Part shown: positions 5,557-37,171 of the stretch, piece by piece
Layout: the number at the start of each line of letters is the position of its first letter
Numbering within the stretch: position 1 is the first letter of the stretch
DNA from: Candidatus Anstonellales archaeon
GTDB taxonomy: Archaea; Micrarchaeota; Micrarchaeia; Anstonellales; CG1-02-47-40
Assembly (NCBI GenBank): GCA_038869735.1
Contig: JAWCQO010000008.1
Coordinates: 1-41,806, forward strand
Direction of reading: 5' to 3'
DNA: 41,806 nt
The notes under the pieces: generated by a model
Databases searched by the model: none
The model's input: only the letters and a program-made list of their open reading frames with translations
Told to the model about the DNA's origin: nothing
Position numbers and translations under genes: made by a program

Positions 5557-6096
5557 CTACACCTTTATTCCAAAGACTTCTTTGAGTCTCTGCTCCTTCA
5601 TTCTCTTTTTTACCTTTTCAAGATAGGTAAAAACTCCTGAATGAGATGTTCCTTCCATTATTTTGAATATTGCATTTACAGCTACCTCTATCGTTTCAAA
5701 AGGGGCAATAATTGATACTGTGTTTCCATAGACGGCAAGATCGCACTCAGCATCATGTTCTATAATGCGCTTTACTTTTCCTTCAATCCCAATTATCCTT
5801 GCTTTTTTCCTTCTTCTTTCACGTTCGTTTCGTGAAAACTCCCTCAAGTCCACTATCTTTAGAGTGTAGCCTTCTTTTGTTAGTTTCAACGCTGTAATGG
5901 GTGAGAAGCCCCTACCTATTGCCATAATTACATCTCGCGATATGTACTCTGAAAGTGGTTCTCCTTCCCATTCAATCAAACCATCAGAATTTACTCGCAA
6001 AGTTACTCCTAACCTCTCCTGAAGCATCTTTTTGGTTTGGCCATTGCGACCAACGAGGACGCTAACCCTTTTGGAAGGAATTCTTAGAAGTTCCAT
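5557..6096 (-). CDS. KH-domain ribosome-assembly protein (Pno1/Dim2-like)
   Basis: This protein of 179 residues has two KH domains. The first has its GxxG loop at residues 16-19 (VGRNGQTKK), the second at 103-106 (IGIEGKVKR). Length, the GRGFSP-like linker (GRGFSPITAL) and the basic stretch before the second KH match archaeal homologues of Pno1/Dim2, which bind the 3' end of 16S rRNA late in small-subunit assembly. In many archaea this gene sits with aIF1A and rio1. Here those two are together about 17 kb away (23579-24637) and pno1 instead leads the topoisomerase VI operon. The ATG at 6096 has AAAGGT upstream and a TTTAAAG box at 6142-6148. Confidence 0.9.
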   Translation of the reverse strand: MELLRIPSKRVSVLVGRNGQTKKMLQERLGVTLRVNSDGLIEWEGEPLSEYISRDVIMAIGRGFSPITALKLTKEGYTLKIVDLREFSRNERERRRKKARIIGIEGKVKRIIEHDAECDLAVYGNTVSIIAPFETIEVAVNAIFKIMEGTSHSGVFTYLEKVKKRMKEQRLKEVFGIKV

Positions 6097-6141
6097 AAGC
6101 TCGACCTTTATCTGGGCGCAAAGAAGTTTTGGGGAGACGGC

Positions 6142-6148
6142 TTTAAAG
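6142..6148 (-). promoter_or_regulatory. candidate TATA box for the pno1-top6BA operon
   Basis: TTTAAAG lies 46-52 bases upstream of the pno1 ATG. No other AT-rich box lies nearer in this relatively GC-rich leader. It falls exactly where the permease remnant on the other strand begins, so the island has been trimmed right up to the operon promoter. The call rests on position only. Confidence 0.35.
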
Positions 6149-6316
6149 GATTTATGGCTAAGTCCTGCTCTTGCATTGCTTCTCTCTGGTCCAAGCTTAA
6201 GCTTGCCAAGTATTTTAGTTATAGGGAAAGTTTTAGGAACAAAGGAAACGGTAGTATATGTCTTAATTGTTATAATTTATTCTACAATTGCAGGTTTAAT
6301 TTTTGGTTTATTATAA
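6146..6316 (+). pseudogene. C-terminal remnant of a UPF0718/ArsP-type permease
   Basis: Only about 56 codons remain. The translated end (LWLSPALALLLSGPSLSLP, then ILVIGKVLGTKE, then two hydrophobic segments to IAGLIFGLL) looks like the last part of the DUF318/ArsP permease family, including its conserved GP-LSLP turn and two final membrane helices. The rest of the gene, normally 300 residues or more, is absent: the frame runs straight into the promoter and antisense of the KH gene. I therefore read it as a truncated leftover. The frame itself is intact to a TAA at 6314-6316. The family call is from memory of the motif, not from a search. Confidence 0.6.
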
Positions 6317-6409
6317 ACAGAACCAGAAATATTCCCCCTCCCCCGCTGCTTCGCAACATATAGTCTGCCTTTGGCAGTTAATTTAAAGTCAGTAAGAAAA
6401 AACTACGGT

Positions 6410-6450
6410 GGCAAAAAATTTAGGCGGACTCGCGACTCGAAATTTTTGCC
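6410..6450. repeat. inverted repeat with 18-base loop
   Basis: GGCAAAAAATTT (6410-6421) and AAATTTTTGCC (6440-6450) are complementary over 11 bases, apart from one extra A. The loop is GC-rich. Its right arm belongs to the long direct repeat; the second copy has only the AAAAATTTTCC part of it (7613-7623). It could fold in RNA or single-stranded DNA. Confidence 0.5.
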
Positions 6451-6585
6451 TTAGGTATCGTTGCACTAAAATTTCGTCTTCCCTTCGCTCAGAGAGCATA
6501 ACGCGATTTAACGGTTACGCTCACCTGCAGTTCACTCCACCCAAATCATGCTTCGCAGGACTTCGTCAAATCGCATATGTTAGGC
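6423..6585 (+). repeat. direct repeat copy 1, with attC-like palindromic core 6496-6585
   Basis: The core folds as an imperfect palindrome of 90 bases. The outer arms are GCATAAC (6496-6502) and GTTAGGC (6579-6585), 6 of 7 complementary. The right arm fits the integron R' consensus GTTRRRY exactly; the left misses RYYYAAC by one base. The inner arms GCGATTTAACG (6503-6513) and CGTCAAATCGC (6564-6574) pair 10 of 11, and CCTGC/GCAGG further in can pair too. Size and arm order are as in attC recombination sites. One departure: the gap between outer and inner arms is 0 bases on the left and 4 on the right, where attC sites usually have a few on both sides. A homologous copy in the same orientation is at 7592-7750. 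Confidence 0.55.
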
Positions 6586-6719
6586 GTAATTCGGAATTCG
6601 GCTTCCCCTACCCACCCTCTCTTAATTTGAGAGAGTTTGTATAGACCAAATTAAACTTGTAATTAGCCACAAAGCTAAAAATATGATTGCTTGTCTTAAA
6701 AGATTTTGACATTTTTTAT

Positions 6720-7397
6720 TCATTTTATTATTTCTACTTCTGACTCATTTAATGTTTTTTGTGTTGGTGATAGCCTCTTTTTTATTATTTCTAAATATTT
6801 TAATTCTTTTTCTATGCCTATTGAATTTCTACCTAATTTTTTAGCTACTACTGAAGTTGTCCCAGAACCTAGAAAAGGATCTAAAATTAAATCACCTGGT
6901 TTGGTACAAGATATAATAATTCTTCTTAATAATTCTTCGGGCTTTTGTGTTGGATGTTCTCCAGCCCATTTTTCTTTTTTAGGTGTTAATGGAATACACC
7001 AAACATTTCTCTTTTGTTTTCCTTTAGGATTAAGAGCGTCATAAATTAAATTTTTTGTATCTTCATAATTAAAAGTCCATTTCTGCCCATTTCCATTTTT
7101 GGATGCCCAAATTAAATGCTCTGTACTTTCTGTAAAAAATCGGCAAGTAATATTTGGTTGGGCGTTTGGCTTAAACCAAACTATACTATTGTTTATCTTT
7201 AGATCAGACATCTGTTGAATAATGTAACCTACCTGGTAGATATTGTGGAATGAACCACAGACCCATAAACTACCTCCGTGTTTCAAAATTCTAAAGCATT
7301 CTGTGAGCCATTCAACATTAAATTTAAAGAAATCATCTTTGTTGAAAATATCCCATTCCTCTTGCATTGTTACATGGCTGCTATATTTCCACCCCAA
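6720..7397 (-). pseudogene. 5'-truncated DNA methyltransferase (beta-class, N4-cytosine/N6-adenine type)
   Basis: The last ~225 residues of a restriction-modification type DNA methyltransferase. The SAM-binding motif is near the C-terminus (LILDPFLGSGTTSVVAKKLG, then GIEKELKYLEIIKKRL). Upstream are ILKHGGSLWVCGSFHNIYQV and the HPTQKP motif typical of this family. In this class the catalytic DPPY/SPPY motif comes first, just before the residues aligned with GWKYSSH. Here the frame loses similarity exactly at GWKY: only a TTG could start it (7397), and the residues before that (SFLIL) do not supply the motif. The enzyme should therefore be inactive. It abuts another truncated methyltransferase on the other strand. 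AT-rich compared with its neighbours. Confidence 0.75.
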
Positions 7398-7591
7398 GAT
7401 TAGAAAGCTATAAAAAAGACGAACTTACTCATGTAAAAATTACAAAGACTGGAACCGTCTATTCTAAAGAAGGCTTATTTTCCCAACAATTTACAAAACG
7501 TAAATTAAGAGAAATTTTTGATAAAGGTGGGTTAAAATCTGAAATTAGGGAATTGAATCCTATTTCTTATTTGTGTATCTGTAGAAAATGA
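7385..7591 (+). pseudogene. C-terminal remnant of a class I SAM-dependent methyltransferase
   Basis: About 68 codons remain. The run TPRLESYKKDELTHVKI, then GLFSQQFTKRKLREIFDKGG and a closing ISYLCICRK look like the C-terminal strand-helix-strand part of small class I methyltransferases of the kind found near surface-sugar genes. No SAM-binding N-terminal part is present: upstream the frame only reads the antisense of the DNA methyltransferase remnant. The stop codon (7589-7591) is directly followed by the second direct repeat (from 7592), which is how a gene sits relative to attC in an integron cassette. The family is recognised by pattern only. Confidence 0.55.
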
Positions 7592-7750
7592 GCGGACGCA
7601 GGAGGGGAACTCAAAAATTTTCCATTCGGACGTTGCACTAAACCTCGTTTCTAACTGAAGCGTATAACAGTTATTAAACAGTTTGCTTGGTTGCACCTCG
7701 TTCTCTCTAAATTATGCTACACATGACTTTATCTAAGCCAGATGTTAATC
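7592..7750 (+). repeat. direct repeat copy 2, with attC-like core 7662-7750
   Basis: Aligns over its whole length with 6423-6585, with short gaps. Both have GCGGAC at the left, an identical 12-mer CGTTGCACTAAA (6459-6470 and 7631-7642), an ATAAC left arm, the shared AAAT-ATGCT block (6543-6552 and 7709-7717), GACTT, and ATGTTA at the right. My hand count over the ~90-base core is about 52 identical positions. The outer arms are GTATAAC (7662-7668) and GTTAATC (7744-7750), 5 of 7 complementary. The inner arms are much weaker than in copy 1, although TTTGCTTGG can pair with part of CTAAGCCAGA. The two copies are diverged, so they are not a recent duplication or a simple attL/attR pair. Confidence 0.5.
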
Positions 7751-7910
7751 AAATATCGTCAAATTTCTTCGATTTATTCTCTTTTTGAAGTCTCTTTTTT
7801 ATCTGTTCATTAGGTTCTTTGTCAGAAACGACAGATTCAGAGCTGTTGATTCTGCATAGATATCGGTGATAAAAATTAGGATTTTTGATGTTTAGGGCAT
7901 CAACATTGAG
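7749..7910 (-). pseudogene. unassigned open frame without start codon (possible gene remnant)
   Basis: A 53-codon minus frame between two stops, with no ATG. It has a protein-like composition: KNPNFYHRYLCRINSSESV, then a charged helix (EPNEQIKKRLQKENKSKKFDD) to the stop at 7749-7751. It lies just downstream of polC in the same direction and ends inside the last bases of repeat copy 2. It could be the tail of another gene lost in the island. I cannot assign it, and chance is possible. Apart from this and the repeat, the 348 bases 7592-7939 hold nothing I can see. Confidence 0.3.
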
Positions 7911-7939
7911 TCAACGAAGCCTGTCTAGGAAAATCGCAG

Positions 7940-10900
7940 TTACATAAATTCTGACAAATCGGACTGCTTTGATTTTTCATCAACGAATATACTTTCTATT
8001 TCGTCTTCAAGAAGTTCTAATCTTTGTTTTAGATAGGATGGGAGCTCATAGAGCTTAATCATTCGTTTTGACACTTCGAGGTATTTTTCTATTCCTCCTC
8101 TATTAACAGTAAGAAGAAGTTTATCCCCACATTTTGTGCATTTTCCAACAAGAGGTATTCGCCTGTATTTTTCATTACACGAAACACACCTAAATTTTTG
8201 GCGCGAAAATGCTCTTAGGTTACCGTAGAGGTCAGGTAAAAAGTGAGAGAGGATTATGCGTTCGGCAACGTCTCTTACGTCTACTGATCGTAATCGCCTC
8301 TCCAACGACAGCTGGGCATCGACCTTTTCTTCCATATCTTTAAATTTTATATAAGTGGTAGTCAATGGGCCAGCATCTATGGAACTGGTTTGGTGAGTAA
8401 ATAAAAGGCCTCTATATTGGTCTTGAGTGCCAAGTGTATCTTTAACAAGCTTTATAGTCAGCTCAGAAGGAGAAAGGTATTTTTCAGAAGCTTCGTAAAA
8501 AGCGAGAGGAAGCTCATTGCATATTTCCATAGAATGCGATTCGTCATCGACTTCTAAGGGGTCAATCACAGCAGTAAGCACGCGCGTAGCATCCATGGTT
8601 CCGCCTCTGGATTCTGGTACGTAATACAGAGAGAAGTTTAAAAGTGCGTCCAAAAGAAGAATGAGCGAGTCTTCATCTCCGTCTGCATTTCTTCTTTTAG
8701 CGGTATGAAAATAAGGATGGGCAAATCCTACGCGTGCTTTAGTAAAACCAATAAGCCGGCACAAGATACCTGCGGATGTGTGCGGGGATATTCCGATAAA
8801 AAGTTTTCCGACAAGGTCAGCTGGGGATTTTATTTTATAGTAAGGTTCTAATCCGTAAAGGGAGACTAGGAGATCGTCAATGAAGGCTGCCACATGCGTG
8901 AAGTATTCGCCACCTGCTTGCGATAGTATAATATCTTGAGGCTTGAGTTCAACAAGTTGGTCCTCGCTTTTTAGATCCTCGCCTTTGTAATCATGAGTAT
9001 AGCCCAGCTCTTTTAGCCTTGAAACTGGGGTGCCGATTTCTCTTGGATAGAAGTGAGTTAGAGGGACATCAGTGGAATCAAATCTGCACGTTCCATCTCT
9101 GAATATTGATAATTTGTGTTTAGCGCGCAATATTCCTTTCTCAATTCGTTCAGGAATCTTGAATGTTGATATCAGGCCTTTTACTCCTTTGACTTCGTCC
9201 GGTAGACTATTGGGCTCAGTTATACCTAGTCTTCTCTTCGCTTCCTCAAACACCTCCTCAAAGTTGATTGGGCGTTCTTCATAAAATTTACAGTTTACAT
9301 TGCAAAGGCTACACCATTCCTGGTATCTTTCTTTTCCACACTTTGGGCAAATATATACAAAATCGCACAAACCTCCACAGCTACAGAGTTTGGTTACGTT
9401 TATTTTACTGCATTGTGAACACTTTAGTCTTGCAATCTCCACACTGATACCGTGTCCTTCAGCAGTAGGGCGCTCGCGAAGGCTTTTGTATGTTTTGATA
9501 ATGCTTCTGTGTTTTATTGTTCGGCCTAGGGGAAATAGAACGTGAACAGGCGGTTTCATCTCTCTTCTTTTGGCCTTCTCCGGCCTGCCCATTCGCGCAC
9601 CGATATAGGTCGGGGCTTTCTCTTTGACAATAACACCTGAAGTTTTGTTTAGTATGCTCATAACCCCGCTACCGCGGTTTTCTGAAAATATTTTATCAAA
9701 TCGCTCAAAGCTTAGGGAATTTTCAACAAGCAGACCCAACGATTTGAGAAGTGCCAATGCGTTTTCTTTCCCTATTATAACCTCTCCCTCTGAGACAGTA
9801 TGAAGAACGCAAAGTTTTTCTAAAATTTCTTTGCCTTCTCCAAGCGGAAGAGCTATGTGTTTAATTCCACCAAGCCAGTCGCGGGATATTTTGGCAGACA
9901 AAAGGTATTTTGCAAGAAGAAGAAGTTCTTCTTCAGTTATATCATGCCAGAAGTAGGTGTATAACGGATGAAGAGGTATATTATGTTCTTCTGATAGTCT
10001 AAAAGCTTCGTCTGCACTAGGATTTGGCTTTGCTCGAATGCCTTTTGAGGCGCATATTTGGGAATACCACTCAAAACACCAAGCACTTGGAATTAATGGG
10101 TGGTTAGATTTGATAAAATCGCCGACAGAAACCAATAAATCTCCAAGAAATAGGATTTTATCTATTTTGCCTAGCACAGCTGTTGCTTCTTCTGTAGAAT
10201 TTAACTTGACAACTGAACCATCCAAGAGTTTTACAACTGGCCCCTCTATCGAATCGCATGGAGAAACAACGCAACCCTTTCCCGGGCGCTCAACTTTCAT
10301 CTGCGTTCCAACTGCAAGAAATGAGTCCAAAATTACCATCGTAGCAGGATGCACTGCCTTTGCCATTATGCCTGTTGCTCTTGTTCTACCATATCTAAGG
10401 CGAAACCCCCCTGCCTGCATGGGATAGGCAAATATTGGCCTACCCGCAACCAGCTCATCTAAGAATGTAGTATTTGGCTTTATTTTTATTATTCCCTCTT
10501 TTTTCCCAATGCGGATAACGGCTTCAAGCCAATCCCAGTCAAGACCAAATTTCTTTGCATATTTTAAAACTTTGCTTGCTTTTTGAGCTATTCCTTCGCA
10601 CACGACAAGAGCTATTCCTCCACGTATCCTATTGGTAATATCCTCACTTATGGTTCTTCCGTGGGAATCCTTAACAAGCCTTTTCAGGTCGCGCTTAACA
10701 GCAACCTCTATTTTTTCTGTTGGTTCTCCCTCTATGCACACAGGACAATTTTTTATTATGTGCCGGATATGTTCATCTGGAGGTTTATATTGGAGTCTTG
10801 CGCAGCGAGCGTTGTATATTTCGCATTCCTCGACATATCTTTCTATTTCATCATCAGTAGCCCGAAAATCTCCAATGCCAAGCTGCCTTCTTGCAACATC

Positions 10901-11389
10901 CCCCAGTACCACTGAAAGCGCGGCTATTGTTCCGCCAGCCGACCGAATTGGGCCTGCAAAATAAAGAGCAAGACACTCTGAATCATCTTGATTTTTTATG
11001 ATGCGGATTTTAGCTATTCCTTCTGTAGGAGCAACGAGTACGCCTTCTGTAAGGATACCAACACCGGTTCTGACTGCTTGGTCTATCAGCTTTTCTTTAG
11101 GTCCTGAGATGAACTCACCCGCACATATTCTCTTTACTATCTCATATGCAATAGTGGTTCTCTCCAAACCTACTGATTCCAGCTTACGGATTTCTTGGGC
11201 AATTCCTGGTGGTCCAACTATCCCTTCAACTCTTCCAGCAACGTCTTCAGCTATCTTTATTTCGACCCCACAAGCAGGGTCAAAACCTTTTTTCCTTGCC
11301 AGTGAAGCAATTTCGTAGGCACTTTCTAGTTCGTGCCTAAGAAGCGAAAAATATTTCTGCATTTCTTCATCTGCTACAAGCATAATCAT
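7940..11389 (-). CDS. polC: DNA polymerase D (Pol II) large subunit DP2
   Basis: The catalytic subunit of the archaeal replicative polymerase PolD. The active site is NADGDED (residues 901-907 from the preferred ATG) with Asp903 and Asp905 as the Mg2+ ligands; ESRGGTMDATRVLT follows. Two zinc modules are visible: a multi-Cys region in the middle (CSQCSKINVTKLCSC, CPKCGKERYQEWCSLC) and a C-terminal one (CVSCNEKY, CTKCGD). At 1149 residues it is intein-free, although the catalytic NADGDED region is a known intein insertion site in this family. The ATG at 11389 overlaps the polB stop as ATGA. A TTG at 11395 is also open but less likely. It ends in SDLSEFM, and the island lies directly after it. 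Confidence 0.97.
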   Translation of the reverse strand: MIMLVADEEMQKYFSLLRHELESAYEIASLARKKGFDPACGVEIKIAEDVAGRVEGIVGPPGIAQEIRKLESVGLERTTIAYEIVKRICAGEFISGPKEKLIDQAVRTGVGILTEGVLVAPTEGIAKIRIIKNQDDSECLALYFAGPIRSAGGTIAALSVVLGDVARRQLGIGDFRATDDEIERYVEECEIYNARCARLQYKPPDEHIRHIIKNCPVCIEGEPTEKIEVAVKRDLKRLVKDSHGRTISEDITNRIRGGIALVVCEGIAQKASKVLKYAKKFGLDWDWLEAVIRIGKKEGIIKIKPNTTFLDELVAGRPIFAYPMQAGGFRLRYGRTRATGIMAKAVHPATMVILDSFLAVGTQMKVERPGKGCVVSPCDSIEGPVVKLLDGSVVKLNSTEEATAVLGKIDKILFLGDLLVSVGDFIKSNHPLIPSAWCFEWYSQICASKGIRAKPNPSADEAFRLSEEHNIPLHPLYTYFWHDITEEELLLLAKYLLSAKISRDWLGGIKHIALPLGEGKEILEKLCVLHTVSEGEVIIGKENALALLKSLGLLVENSLSFERFDKIFSENRGSGVMSILNKTSGVIVKEKAPTYIGARMGRPEKAKRREMKPPVHVLFPLGRTIKHRSIIKTYKSLRERPTAEGHGISVEIARLKCSQCSKINVTKLCSCGGLCDFVYICPKCGKERYQEWCSLCNVNCKFYEERPINFEEVFEEAKRRLGITEPNSLPDEVKGVKGLISTFKIPERIEKGILRAKHKLSIFRDGTCRFDSTDVPLTHFYPREIGTPVSRLKELGYTHDYKGEDLKSEDQLVELKPQDIILSQAGGEYFTHVAAFIDDLLVSLYGLEPYYKIKSPADLVGKLFIGISPHTSAGILCRLIGFTKARVGFAHPYFHTAKRRNADGDEDSLILLLDALLNFSLYYVPESRGGTMDATRVLTAVIDPLEVDDESHSMEICNELPLAFYEASEKYLSPSELTIKLVKDTLGTQDQYRGLLFTHQTSSIDAGPLTTTYIKFKDMEEKVDAQLSLERRLRSVDVRDVAERIILSHFLPDLYGNLRAFSRQKFRCVSCNEKYRRIPLVGKCTKCGDKLLLTVNRGGIEKYLEVSKRMIKLYELPSYLKQRLELLEDEIESIFVDEKSKQSDLSEFM

Positions 11390-12840
11390 CGCCAAGAGTT
11401 AAAGTCCAGGGCAGTTATCTTGCAAGTTTTAGACTCGCATATATAAACTATTCCTGGAGAAGGCACATGTCCCATACGCACCTGAAAATCTGTCCTAGAC
11501 TGAAAGGTACCGGAGTTTAAAACCAATGTTCCTCTGTAGAAAGTATAGGCATTTTTGTGCAAGTGGCCCATATGCATAACATCAGGCTCATTTTGGATAA
11601 CCATATAATCATGGCGTTCAGGGATTATAAGATTCTCTCCGTAGATTGGCGATAGGTGTCGTCTTTTAAGTAGCTCTACCATGGGCTTTTCTGGGTGCAT
11701 ATAATCAAGACCGGATGCGTTTGAGATTATCCCGTCAAGTGAGGTCCCATGGTAAACGAGGTGTCGTAATCCTTCTATATCCACCCACCCGGGACTTCCT
11801 ATACGCTTGACATCTGCTTTTATTAGATCTTTGCTTATTAGAGGCTGTGGATCCGCCCTGCGAACTGCGTCGTGATTGCCCGGCGAAACTATTATTTCTA
11901 TATAATCTGGAATGCGTGATATCAACTGGTCAAAGGCTTCGTATTGCTTAAATACATCTTTTATTGCAAGTTCTCTCTCTTGGAGAGGATATACCCCAAT
12001 TCCGTCTATGATATCGCCGGCAATTACTATGTACTTGACCTTTCCTGCAAGTTCTTTTCTATCACTTCCTCCGCAAAGCCACTCTATAAACTTTGAAAAC
12101 TCTCTTTCGAGAAAATTCTTGCTTCCTATATGTAAGTCTGATAAGTAAGCTATTGCAACATCTATGTCTGTTTTTTTCTGTTCTCGGATAGTGGGGAGGT
12201 CAAGATACATTATATCCGTTGCAAAGACAAAGGGGTCAGAAACTCTCCCATCAATTGCAACAATATCATCAAGAAGAACTGATTTTGCAAGAGCAAATAT
12301 TCTATAGTCTGATTGTTTAACAAGCACCTTTGCAGTTCCCTTGAGGTCTTCGATTTCAAAAAGCAAGTTTCCTTGTTTAGTTATTCGCTTTTCATATACA
12401 AGTCCTATTAGCCTAACCTCTTTTCTTTCAAATTCCTTAAGGCGATTTGTCTCGACAATAGGTTTATCGGTGGTTCGGCTTCTCCTGATAAGCGCTTTCA
12501 TTCTTTCGAATCTATCGGTGAAGTGGTAGATAAAGTCTTCCACGCTCCCTGTGCATCTTGACTTTCCAGAGACGTCATCTTCATGAAGAATTCTAATTTT
12601 AGATGGATATTCTTTGGCCGCAGGATAAAAGTCATCTGATCTTTTTATTTCGACAGGTGTTGGAATTTTGTTCTTCTCGGCGATTATTTCCTCTATGTCT
12701 TTTCTTTCAACGAACAAGAGATTGCGATGAAGTATTTCTTTTATAACATCTTGAGGCTTATCAATTTTTTCTAAAAGTTCTTCTGCACCCTCACTAATGC
12801 GAACTCCTGCTGATAATAGTTTTTCTAGAGCCTCCCCCAT
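11386..12840 (-). CDS. polB: DNA polymerase D small subunit DP1 (3'-5' exonuclease)
   Basis: The proofreading subunit of PolD. An N-terminal helical region (~1-60) is followed by an OB fold (~135-215) and a calcineurin/Mre11-like phosphodiesterase. All metal-binding motifs are present: SDLHIGS (Asp235, His237), AGDIIDG (Asp276), SPGNHD (Asn322, His323), VYHGTS (His364) and MGHLHKN (His426, His428). Both nuclease metals can therefore be bound, as in active archaeal DP1. Length 484 is shorter than in Pyrococcus because the N-terminal linker is short. It overlaps polC by four bases, so the two subunits are translated from one message. Confidence 0.96.
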   Translation of the reverse strand: MGEALEKLLSAGVRISEGAEELLEKIDKPQDVIKEILHRNLLFVERKDIEEIIAEKNKIPTPVEIKRSDDFYPAAKEYPSKIRILHEDDVSGKSRCTGSVEDFIYHFTDRFERMKALIRRSRTTDKPIVETNRLKEFERKEVRLIGLVYEKRITKQGNLLFEIEDLKGTAKVLVKQSDYRIFALAKSVLLDDIVAIDGRVSDPFVFATDIMYLDLPTIREQKKTDIDVAIAYLSDLHIGSKNFLEREFSKFIEWLCGGSDRKELAGKVKYIVIAGDIIDGIGVYPLQERELAIKDVFKQYEAFDQLISRIPDYIEIIVSPGNHDAVRRADPQPLISKDLIKADVKRIGSPGWVDIEGLRHLVYHGTSLDGIISNASGLDYMHPEKPMVELLKRRHLSPIYGENLIIPERHDYMVIQNEPDVMHMGHLHKNAYTFYRGTLVLNSGTFQSRTDFQVRMGHVPSPGIVYICESKTCKITALDFNSWR

Positions 12841-36430: not shown

Positions 36431-37171
36431 TTATTTTAATAAATATTCCCAGCTCTTTATTTGCATCTCTCTTCTTGACTTGAATCCAAGTTCAGAGTAG
36501 CAGTCGAGAAGGTAGGGATGGGGGTTAAAGTGTGGAACAGAGATTAGATAGTTTTCGAGGTCGTTAAGAAGTGGGTATACCTTTTTTTCGTAAACTTCCT
36601 TTACTTTTGTACTTAAACCTCCCTTTTTATTTATTATTGCGTGTGAGATGTCTTTGTGCACAAATGCAAATGAAACTGTCCTTTCCTCCTCTTCTTTTGT
36701 GATTATATTTTTTAGTATTTTTTTGCAATTTGCAGAGATAGTAAGAGAGGTTTGGGTCTTTGTTATATTAAACTCTGACGGAGAGAATTTTATAAGAAAA
36801 TATGATTGGAAGTGTTCCTTCCCTTCTTTTGTTTCAACAAATTTTGAAAGTAGGATTAGATTACCTTCATAAATGGAAAGTGCTCGTGTGGAATCGCCAG
36901 CAAACCTGATTGGTTGCTTTTGTCCATCAACATACATTGGCTGGAAGTAATTTGAAGAGGAGGTGTAAGGTGCACGGGGTTCGAAAAGAGGGTAAGAGAC
37001 CTTTATTGGAAAGGGGAGATTTGAGCAAATGTCTTTTGAGAAGGAAGGATCAGCATTTGAGAGGTTAGTTGTAATCTCCATCCGCTCAATATCCCTTAAA
37101 AAATACCCATTGATTTTGGTTATGTATGAGTTCGGGAGATTATCAAAGCCCAGACAAATCCCCTTTTCCAT
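36431..37171 (-). CDS. unrecognised 246-residue protein
   Basis: I do not recognise a family. The protein is soluble-looking, mixed alpha/beta, with no signal peptide or membrane segment. A Pro/Tyr-rich stretch (YPLFEPRAPYTSSSNYFQP) at about 60-78 is followed by beta-rich segments, then a C-terminal helical part ending with PHFNPHPYLLDCYSEL. It starts nine bases after the end of the SlyD-like gene and is surely co-transcribed with it. Confidence 0.55.
   Translation of the reverse strand: MEKGICLGFDNLPNSYITKINGYFLRDIERMEITTNLSNADPSFSKDICSNLPFPIKVSYPLFEPRAPYTSSSNYFQPMYVDGQKQPIRFAGDSTRALSIYEGNLILLSKFVETKEGKEHFQSYFLIKFSPSEFNITKTQTSLTISANCKKILKNIITKEEEERTVSFAFVHKDISHAIINKKGGLSTKVKEVYEKKVYPLLNDLENYLISVPHFNPHPYLLDCYSELGFKSRREMQIKSWEYLLK

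Follow-up and report, generated by a model that had tools for sequence, protein, structure and literature searches.

Cassette capture by integrons is held to depend on the I2 domain, which is regarded as exclusive to integron integrases, and the missing intermediates have been named as an obstacle to reconstructing the origin of these enzymes (PMC7790495). The integrases (IntI) are recognised through this extra domain (PMC9024848). In most archaea, the chromosomally encoded dimer resolvase is XerA (PMC8371274). Here we describe an island in an archaeal chromosome that is a two-site CALIN by the literature criteria (two or more attC sites separated by less than 4 kb, and no integrase). It is very probably what remains of an integron-type array of cassettes, which entered the space between the genes for the DNA polymerase D large subunit (DP2) and a KH-domain protein in this lineage and then decayed. 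The sites, their orientation, the truncated genes and the interrupted gene pair are observed, whereas entry by cassette recombination is what we infer from them.

The stretch of DNA analysed (the window) is an entire contig of 41.8 kb, contig C8 of the Candidatus Anstonellales genome designated G000 (884 kb; completeness 96.85%, contamination 0.07%). All genomes compared in this study are draft assemblies, mostly or wholly metagenomic. The island and its borders comprise the following features.

5557-6096, minus strand: KH-domain protein (Pfam KH families), the left border, found in 28 of the 29 relatives searched.
6097-7939: the island, 1.84 kb, bounded by the KH-domain gene and DP2.
6137-6316, plus strand: C-terminal fragment of an ArsP_1 permease (PF03773), 5'-truncated; gene end of the first cassette.
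6394-6495, plus strand: block before attC 1, common to the copy on contig C11, with GGCGGACTCGCGACTCG and CGTTGCACTAAA.
6496-6585, plus strand: attC 1, with R'' GCATAAC (6496-6502), L'' GCGATTTAACG, L' CGTCAAATCGC and R' GTTAGGC (6579-6585).
6586-6602, plus strand: cassette-start motif after R' (GTAATTCGGAATTCGGC); 14.8 bits and rank 2 in the window with an R'+start matrix made without this genome.
6720-7397, minus strand: N6_N4 DNA methylase gene that lacks the N-terminus (186.8 bits with PF01555, matched from profile position 18 onwards).
7412-7591, plus strand: 3' end of a 5'-truncated gene with no family assigned (ORF 7367-7591); its stop abuts the repeat.
7592-7661, plus strand: block before attC 2 (GCGGACGC, CGTTGCACTAAA), from the alignment with copy 1.
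7662-7750, plus strand: attC 2, decayed, with R'' GTATAAC (7662-7668) and R' GTTAATC (7744-7750); L'' stem lost.
7940-11395, minus strand: DP2 (PF24846, PF24844, PF03833), the right border.

DP2 and the KH gene are adjacent in relatives, with gaps of about 13 bp (G005), 37 bp (G027) and about 47 bp (L037), so that the island interrupts the pair and the empty site is visible. The G+C content of the island is 0.349, against 0.393 in the remaining window. In another genome of the same family (G001; L070, G001:C1, 6801-9464), a gene named as a P-type ATPase from its sequence lies between DP2 and KH, with no attC, and this spot therefore accepts other kinds of insertion, a point that counts against the cassette-relic reading. 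The best named relatives of the DP2 come from two Micrarchaeota assemblies (56 and 53% identity), followed by other archaea at 43-45%, and on the strength of this one gene we call the chromosome Micrarchaeota-like. We consider it highly unlikely that contamination or misassembly has put a bacterial array into an archaeal bin. The genomes concerned are indeed drafts and several attC contigs are short, but the island lies in the interior of a contig of 41.8 kb whose order of DP2, topoisomerase VI-like subunit and KH genes is common to relatives, and the recombinase contigs of two further genomes discussed below (G004 and G006) bear RadA/Rad51 and RIO1 genes.

The recognised genes of the island are all incomplete. 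The permease fragment (ORF 6032-6316) matches the C-terminal 53-54 positions of PF03773 (profile positions 241-293 of 294; 46.2 bits). The methylase lacks a conserved motif near its start, whereas its intact relative on C11 matches PF01555 positions 1-221. For the 7412-7591 fragment, neither a Pfam match nor a convincing PDB match was obtained; by eye it had the appearance of a methyltransferase C-terminus, an assignment that was backed by no searched library and was rejected. Near position 7390, the methylase and this second gene, on opposite strands and both without 5' ends, point away from a common point, as if a deletion had brought two divergent genes together.

A preliminary description of the window had reported two direct repeats with a common exact 12-mer, each preceded by a plus-strand gene end, and both statements are borne out. 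The repeats (CGTTGCACTAAA being the 12-mer) are directly oriented with 99 identities over 149 positions (BLAST E 6e-11), and their local score of 33 lies far above those of 1000 shuffles (at most 16) and of 614 other tiles of the window (at most 17). The gene ends are those of the permease and of ORF 7367-7591, whose TGA (7589-7591) abuts the second repeat. The R boxes proposed for copy 1 are also found as described. The two attC sites lie ~1.17 kb apart in one orientation.

For attC identification we used covariance models of our own (R1-R3), together with a generic scan that looks for R'' (RYYYAAC) and R' (GTTRRRY) combined with L arms that can pair. Model R2 comprises eight attCs from four genomes (G004, G006, G002 and G101) and none from G000; its training sites were found by likeness to G000 sites, which makes the model independent in sequence and not in the choice of members. 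This model ranks the two sites of the island first and second in the window, in agreement with the decayed cassette array without an integrase that the same description had proposed: 6496-6585 is the best of 41.8 kb (52.1 bits, E 9.1e-10), and 7662-7750 is the runner-up, weak when taken alone (16.7 bits, E 0.24, all positions scored). The generic scan likewise places 6496-6585 at the top of the window, and misses 7662-7750, whose L stem is lost. Known attCs of class 1 integrons have scores similar to that of 6496-6585, and among 40 random sequences matched for length and dinucleotide composition one scored as high. Compared with shuffled interiors, the L'' stem is beyond chance in copy 1 (P 0.002) and not in copy 2 (P 0.81).

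Some observations count against reading the island as a relic. Copy 2 cannot be called by structure alone, and the R'+start matrix reveals no attI-like box at the left edge of the island. Unconstrained bottom-strand folding, which had been suggested as a check, gave unremarkable results for both cores (copy 1, z -0.31; copy 2, z +0.41). The asymmetric arm spacing that had been raised as a further counter-argument loses its force: unequal arm spacers, one of 1-2 nt and the opposite one of 5, are a family trait of intact sites in other genomes (G003, G004, G101 and G002).

A search with copy 1 recovered related sites elsewhere in G000, on contig C11, and in two genomes from other families of the same order (G004 and G006), and these copies, as had been anticipated for a cassette array, stand beside cassette-like genes. 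C11 holds the third and fourth copies of the repeat, the third being 84% identical over 217 bp (182 identities between the attC 1 region and C11:8378-8162), and model R2 finds both sites (E 3e-11 and 6e-7). The nearest site to attC 1 belongs to its own genome (C8_1 vs C11_1, 82%), while CGTTGCACTAAA precedes an attC in G006 too. On contig G004:C54, four attCs at intervals of ~0.9-1.7 kb with unrelated genes between them make up a classic array.

The attC stems R''/R' and L''/L' of the C11 locus and its relatives are under base-pair selection. The R2 training sites have a covariation score of 0.281, while shuffles give 0.123 and none of 500 reaches the observed value; the structure used here came from members of the training set, and the shuffle control takes no account of kinship among the sites. 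Stem changes on both sides occupy 18 cells against 7.5 expected, and the signal vanishes when the partner is slid. The bottom-strand folds of several attCs of the family are far better than those of shuffles (z -4.9, -5.6, -3.6 and -3.8). A branched bottom-strand fold, with a long stem and two inner hairpins, was seen in intact attCs of the family at L094 772-877, L074 3490-3593, and L016 5747-5849 and 6594-6700. The conserved cassette-start motif after R' (GNAATYGCTCGGCG-like) exceeds the usual seven bases, for example at 6579-6602 of the window. Cassette starts and ends look weakly inverted to each other; scored as terminal inverted repeats, each start against its own end, they show a weak effect (mean score 32.1 vs 27.4).

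Copies dispersed over two contigs, with homology between copy 1 and C11 that spans about 190-217 bp, might also be expected of a MITE or other short transposon family. We regard this origin as very improbable, since strong homology stops at the R' core, the conserved part consists of two nested stems with compensatory changes, and the G004 sites part different genes at cassette spacing; neither terminal inverted repeats nor target duplications were noticed when the copy borders were read by eye. A phage or plasmid origin of the repeat was rejected as well, as it had no match among phages or plasmids and no exact motif in viral contigs. The position of the repeats after stop codons and their inverted repeats would also suit 3'-UTR elements, either structured RNAs or terminators. 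This reading is very improbable, given that the Rfam matches in the window are two tRNAs only, that R' and R'' match the attC consensus boxes, and that the cassette-start motif after R' is common to recombinase-proximal boxes.

The locus on C11 (L009, G000:C11) has an integron-like layout, with the following features.

10458-11365: broken XerA-type recombinase and attI-like box, the recombinase divergent from the cassettes.
10458-10464, minus strand: attI-like R' box, followed by the cassette-start motif.
8184-10457, minus strand: first cassette (restriction-modification) with its attC; an HxlR/CDGSH pair and the second attC come after it.
8275-8184, minus strand: first attC (model R2).
7464-7370, minus strand: second attC (model R2).

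The first C11 cassette carries a methylase and a tail-to-tail DUF6996/DUF6997 gene, presumed to be a restriction-modification pair. On the other side of the box lies a divergent gene for a tyrosine recombinase, disrupted by both frameshifts and stop codons, with its start ~81 bp from the box; G006 has the same divergent arrangement of recombinase, attI and cassette, with the box 86 bp from the gene start. Using a matrix of R' and the 17 following bases that was trained on attCs only, we obtained 19.2 bits for the C11 box and 24.2 bits for the G006 box, neither of which was in the training set, against a null maximum of 16.4 over 182,214 positions. With the G000 sites left out of training, the C11 box scored 19.3 and came first on C11, compared with 17.9 for a presumed chance match in the window; a matrix match at window position 37064 falls within a coding frame, and we attribute it to chance. 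Outside the box, the C11 and G006 regions match at 24 of 38 positions (null mean 11.3; 0 of 5000 shuffles as good). We thus regard the sites beside the recombinase genes on C11 and in G006 as putative attI-type sites. The reading of C11:10458 as half of a plus-strand attC was dropped, because the cassette-start motif shows that it belongs to the minus strand. At its beginning (L009, 1-1464), C11 carries an open-ended ORF of ~33-residue repeats (e.g., ALSNNTVASLFAQHPDAVVQIAQATGKDAWLAFE).

By its sequence, this recombinase is of the XerA type and has no IntI-specific I2 insertion. The best family for the intact homologue from G003 is NF040815 (archaeal XerA; cut-off 220 bits), with 239.3 bits; a homologue from G083 reaches 219.3, just below the cut-off, and the broken copies on C11 and in G006 reach 117.1 and 153.1 bits. 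The best PDB matches of the C11 fragment are the XerA structures 5hxy and 4a8e. The G003 enzyme falls below the cut-off of TIGR02249 (integron integrase), and the alignment of the recombinase to this profile skips about positions 176-236. In all copies the segment between the catalytic K region and HxLRH measures 62-65 residues, compared with 106 in IntI1 and 68-72 in XerC/XerD. Within the G000 genome, TIGR02249 matches occur on C11 only, none of them over the cut-off, and none in the window array. The search for an integron-type recombinase that the preliminary description had called for thus led to the broken tyrosine recombinase with an attI-like box on C11, which is of a type without the IntI-specific domain.

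In G003, the recombinase is intact (356 aa) and is followed ~100 bp after the gene by a weaker attI-like box (11.2 bits, P 1e-5 per position). After the box come a methylase and a second gene, an attC (R2 44.4 bits; fold z -3.6) and a next gene, the last being DUF262-like in appearance. The contig (G003:C55, L094) starts with an apparent tRNA 3' end, and the 356-aa protein has an extra N-terminal part. The G004 contig (C35) ends at the recombinase start codon. Three attC genomes, G000 and two others of the order, have an assembled recombinase flank, and in each of them an attI-like box adjoins the gene, strongly in two. Although G004 and G006 belong to different families, their recombinase genes (L092, C35 end; L093, C21) are 93-98% identical at the DNA level and their attCs G004_2 and G006_2 are 95% identical, which suggests recent transfer between them. 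Both copies are damaged, showing a frameshift and loss of the first catalytic arginine region, which brings the damaged copies to three (G000, G004 and G006) out of the four known from attC genomes.

In a set of 301 genomes from the phylum, five have a close homologue of the recombinase (above 80 bits, a line set after the scores were seen): G000, G003, G004, G006 and G083, which come from different families. attCs at E at most 0.01, called with a model not trained on G003, occur in eight genomes (G000, G002, G003, G004, G006, G053, G091 and G101). Four of the five recombinase genomes thus also have attCs (hypergeometric P about 1e-6; 3e-5 without G000; 4e-4 within the order without G000; kinship is ignored in all three values). 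The attC genomes without the recombinase are G002, G101, G053 and G091, whose assemblies are incomplete. No genuine IntI appeared among the 301 genomes, none of which reached either E 1e-45 or the cut-off with TIGR02249, whereas IntI1 as a positive control matched the profile over its full length with 505.6 bits.

By analogy with known integrons, a working attC would be folded on one strand through its R and L arms, a tyrosine recombinase would recombine at the G/TT of the R' box, and a gene with its attC would move as a circle through recombination between attC and attI. The likely source of the window array in G000 would be the C11 locus, and we infer that both stem from the same system, with the XerA-type recombinase as the candidate enzyme that moved the cassettes. 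Because the C11 recombinase is broken and copy 2 is stemless, the window array can probably no longer move, except where copy 1 is acted on by a foreign integrase.

Evidence from related genomes points to arrays of this kind being operated by a recombinase that lacks the part held to be essential for such DNA shuffling. That an I2-less XerA-type recombinase captures integron cassettes in this archaeal phylum, possibly as an integron variant, is a proposal to which we give a little less than an even chance, based on gene layout and co-occurrence; the established necessity of I2 (PMC7790495) counts against it. The relic could also be that of an ordinary integron, in which a classical I2-bearing IntI, acting in trans or since lost, moved the cassettes and the XerA-type enzyme was uninvolved. 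We hold this to be a serious possibility, if rather short of even. IntI with I2 is the sole enzyme known to recombine attC (PMC7790495), IntI-less CALINs are common in archaeal metagenome-assembled genomes (PMC9668308), most recombinase copies found in attC genomes are damaged, and attC genomes without a recombinase exist. Against an ordinary integron stand the absence of TIGR02249 matches at E 1e-45 among the 301 genomes, the recombinase beside an attI-like box in three of three attC genomes with an assembled flank, and the co-occurrence with attCs.

Should cassette capture by the XerA-type enzyme be true, single-strand attC recombination would need no I2, and the system would be either an integron form older than I2 or a solution reached independently, perhaps one that uses the longer branched attC fold. 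The I2-less recombinases at attI-like boxes in three genomes, with attC cassettes behind the boxes, are candidates for the missing intermediates or for a second solution. Since the extra domain serves to recognise IntI, platforms of this kind would probably be classed as CALINs. The G003 copy is a full open frame, which makes I2-less capture directly testable.

Like a CALIN in the IntegronFinder definition, the island has two attCs in the same orientation, genes that end before each of them and no integrase; it differs in that its second attC is stemless, its recognised cassette genes are all truncated and its surroundings are a neighbourhood of core archaeal genes. It is a well-anchored integron relic of an archaeal chromosome, internal to a contig, between core replication genes and with an empty site in relatives. 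The main text of the report on archaeal integrons (Ghaly et al. 2022, PMC9668308), which does not mention Micrarchaeota, describes features that recur here, namely attC arrays in metagenome-assembled genomes, restriction-modification cassettes, attCs that are more alike within one genome, and an attI immediately downstream of the integrase gene, as in G003; the IntIs described there have the IntI-specific domain, which the recombinases studied here lack. The class 1 integron (IntI1, attI1, aadA1 attC) has the same R''/R' boxes and nested arms, and its divergent layout is found on C11 and in G006, whereas the attCs of the present family are mostly 90-100 bp long instead of 60-70, with unequal spacers, and the K-HxLRH segment is far shorter than that of IntI1. 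Unlike archaeal XerA in general (NF040815), the close form described here is confined to five of the 301 genomes and stands beside cassettes. In bacterial Xer-dif (pdif) modules, genes are moved by Xer-type recombinases without I2, and dif sites are short (~28 bp), double-stranded sequences and not foldable attC sites. The arrays of this phylum would resemble these modules in being mobilised by I2-less Xer-type enzymes and differ from them in having foldable attC sites in place of dif.
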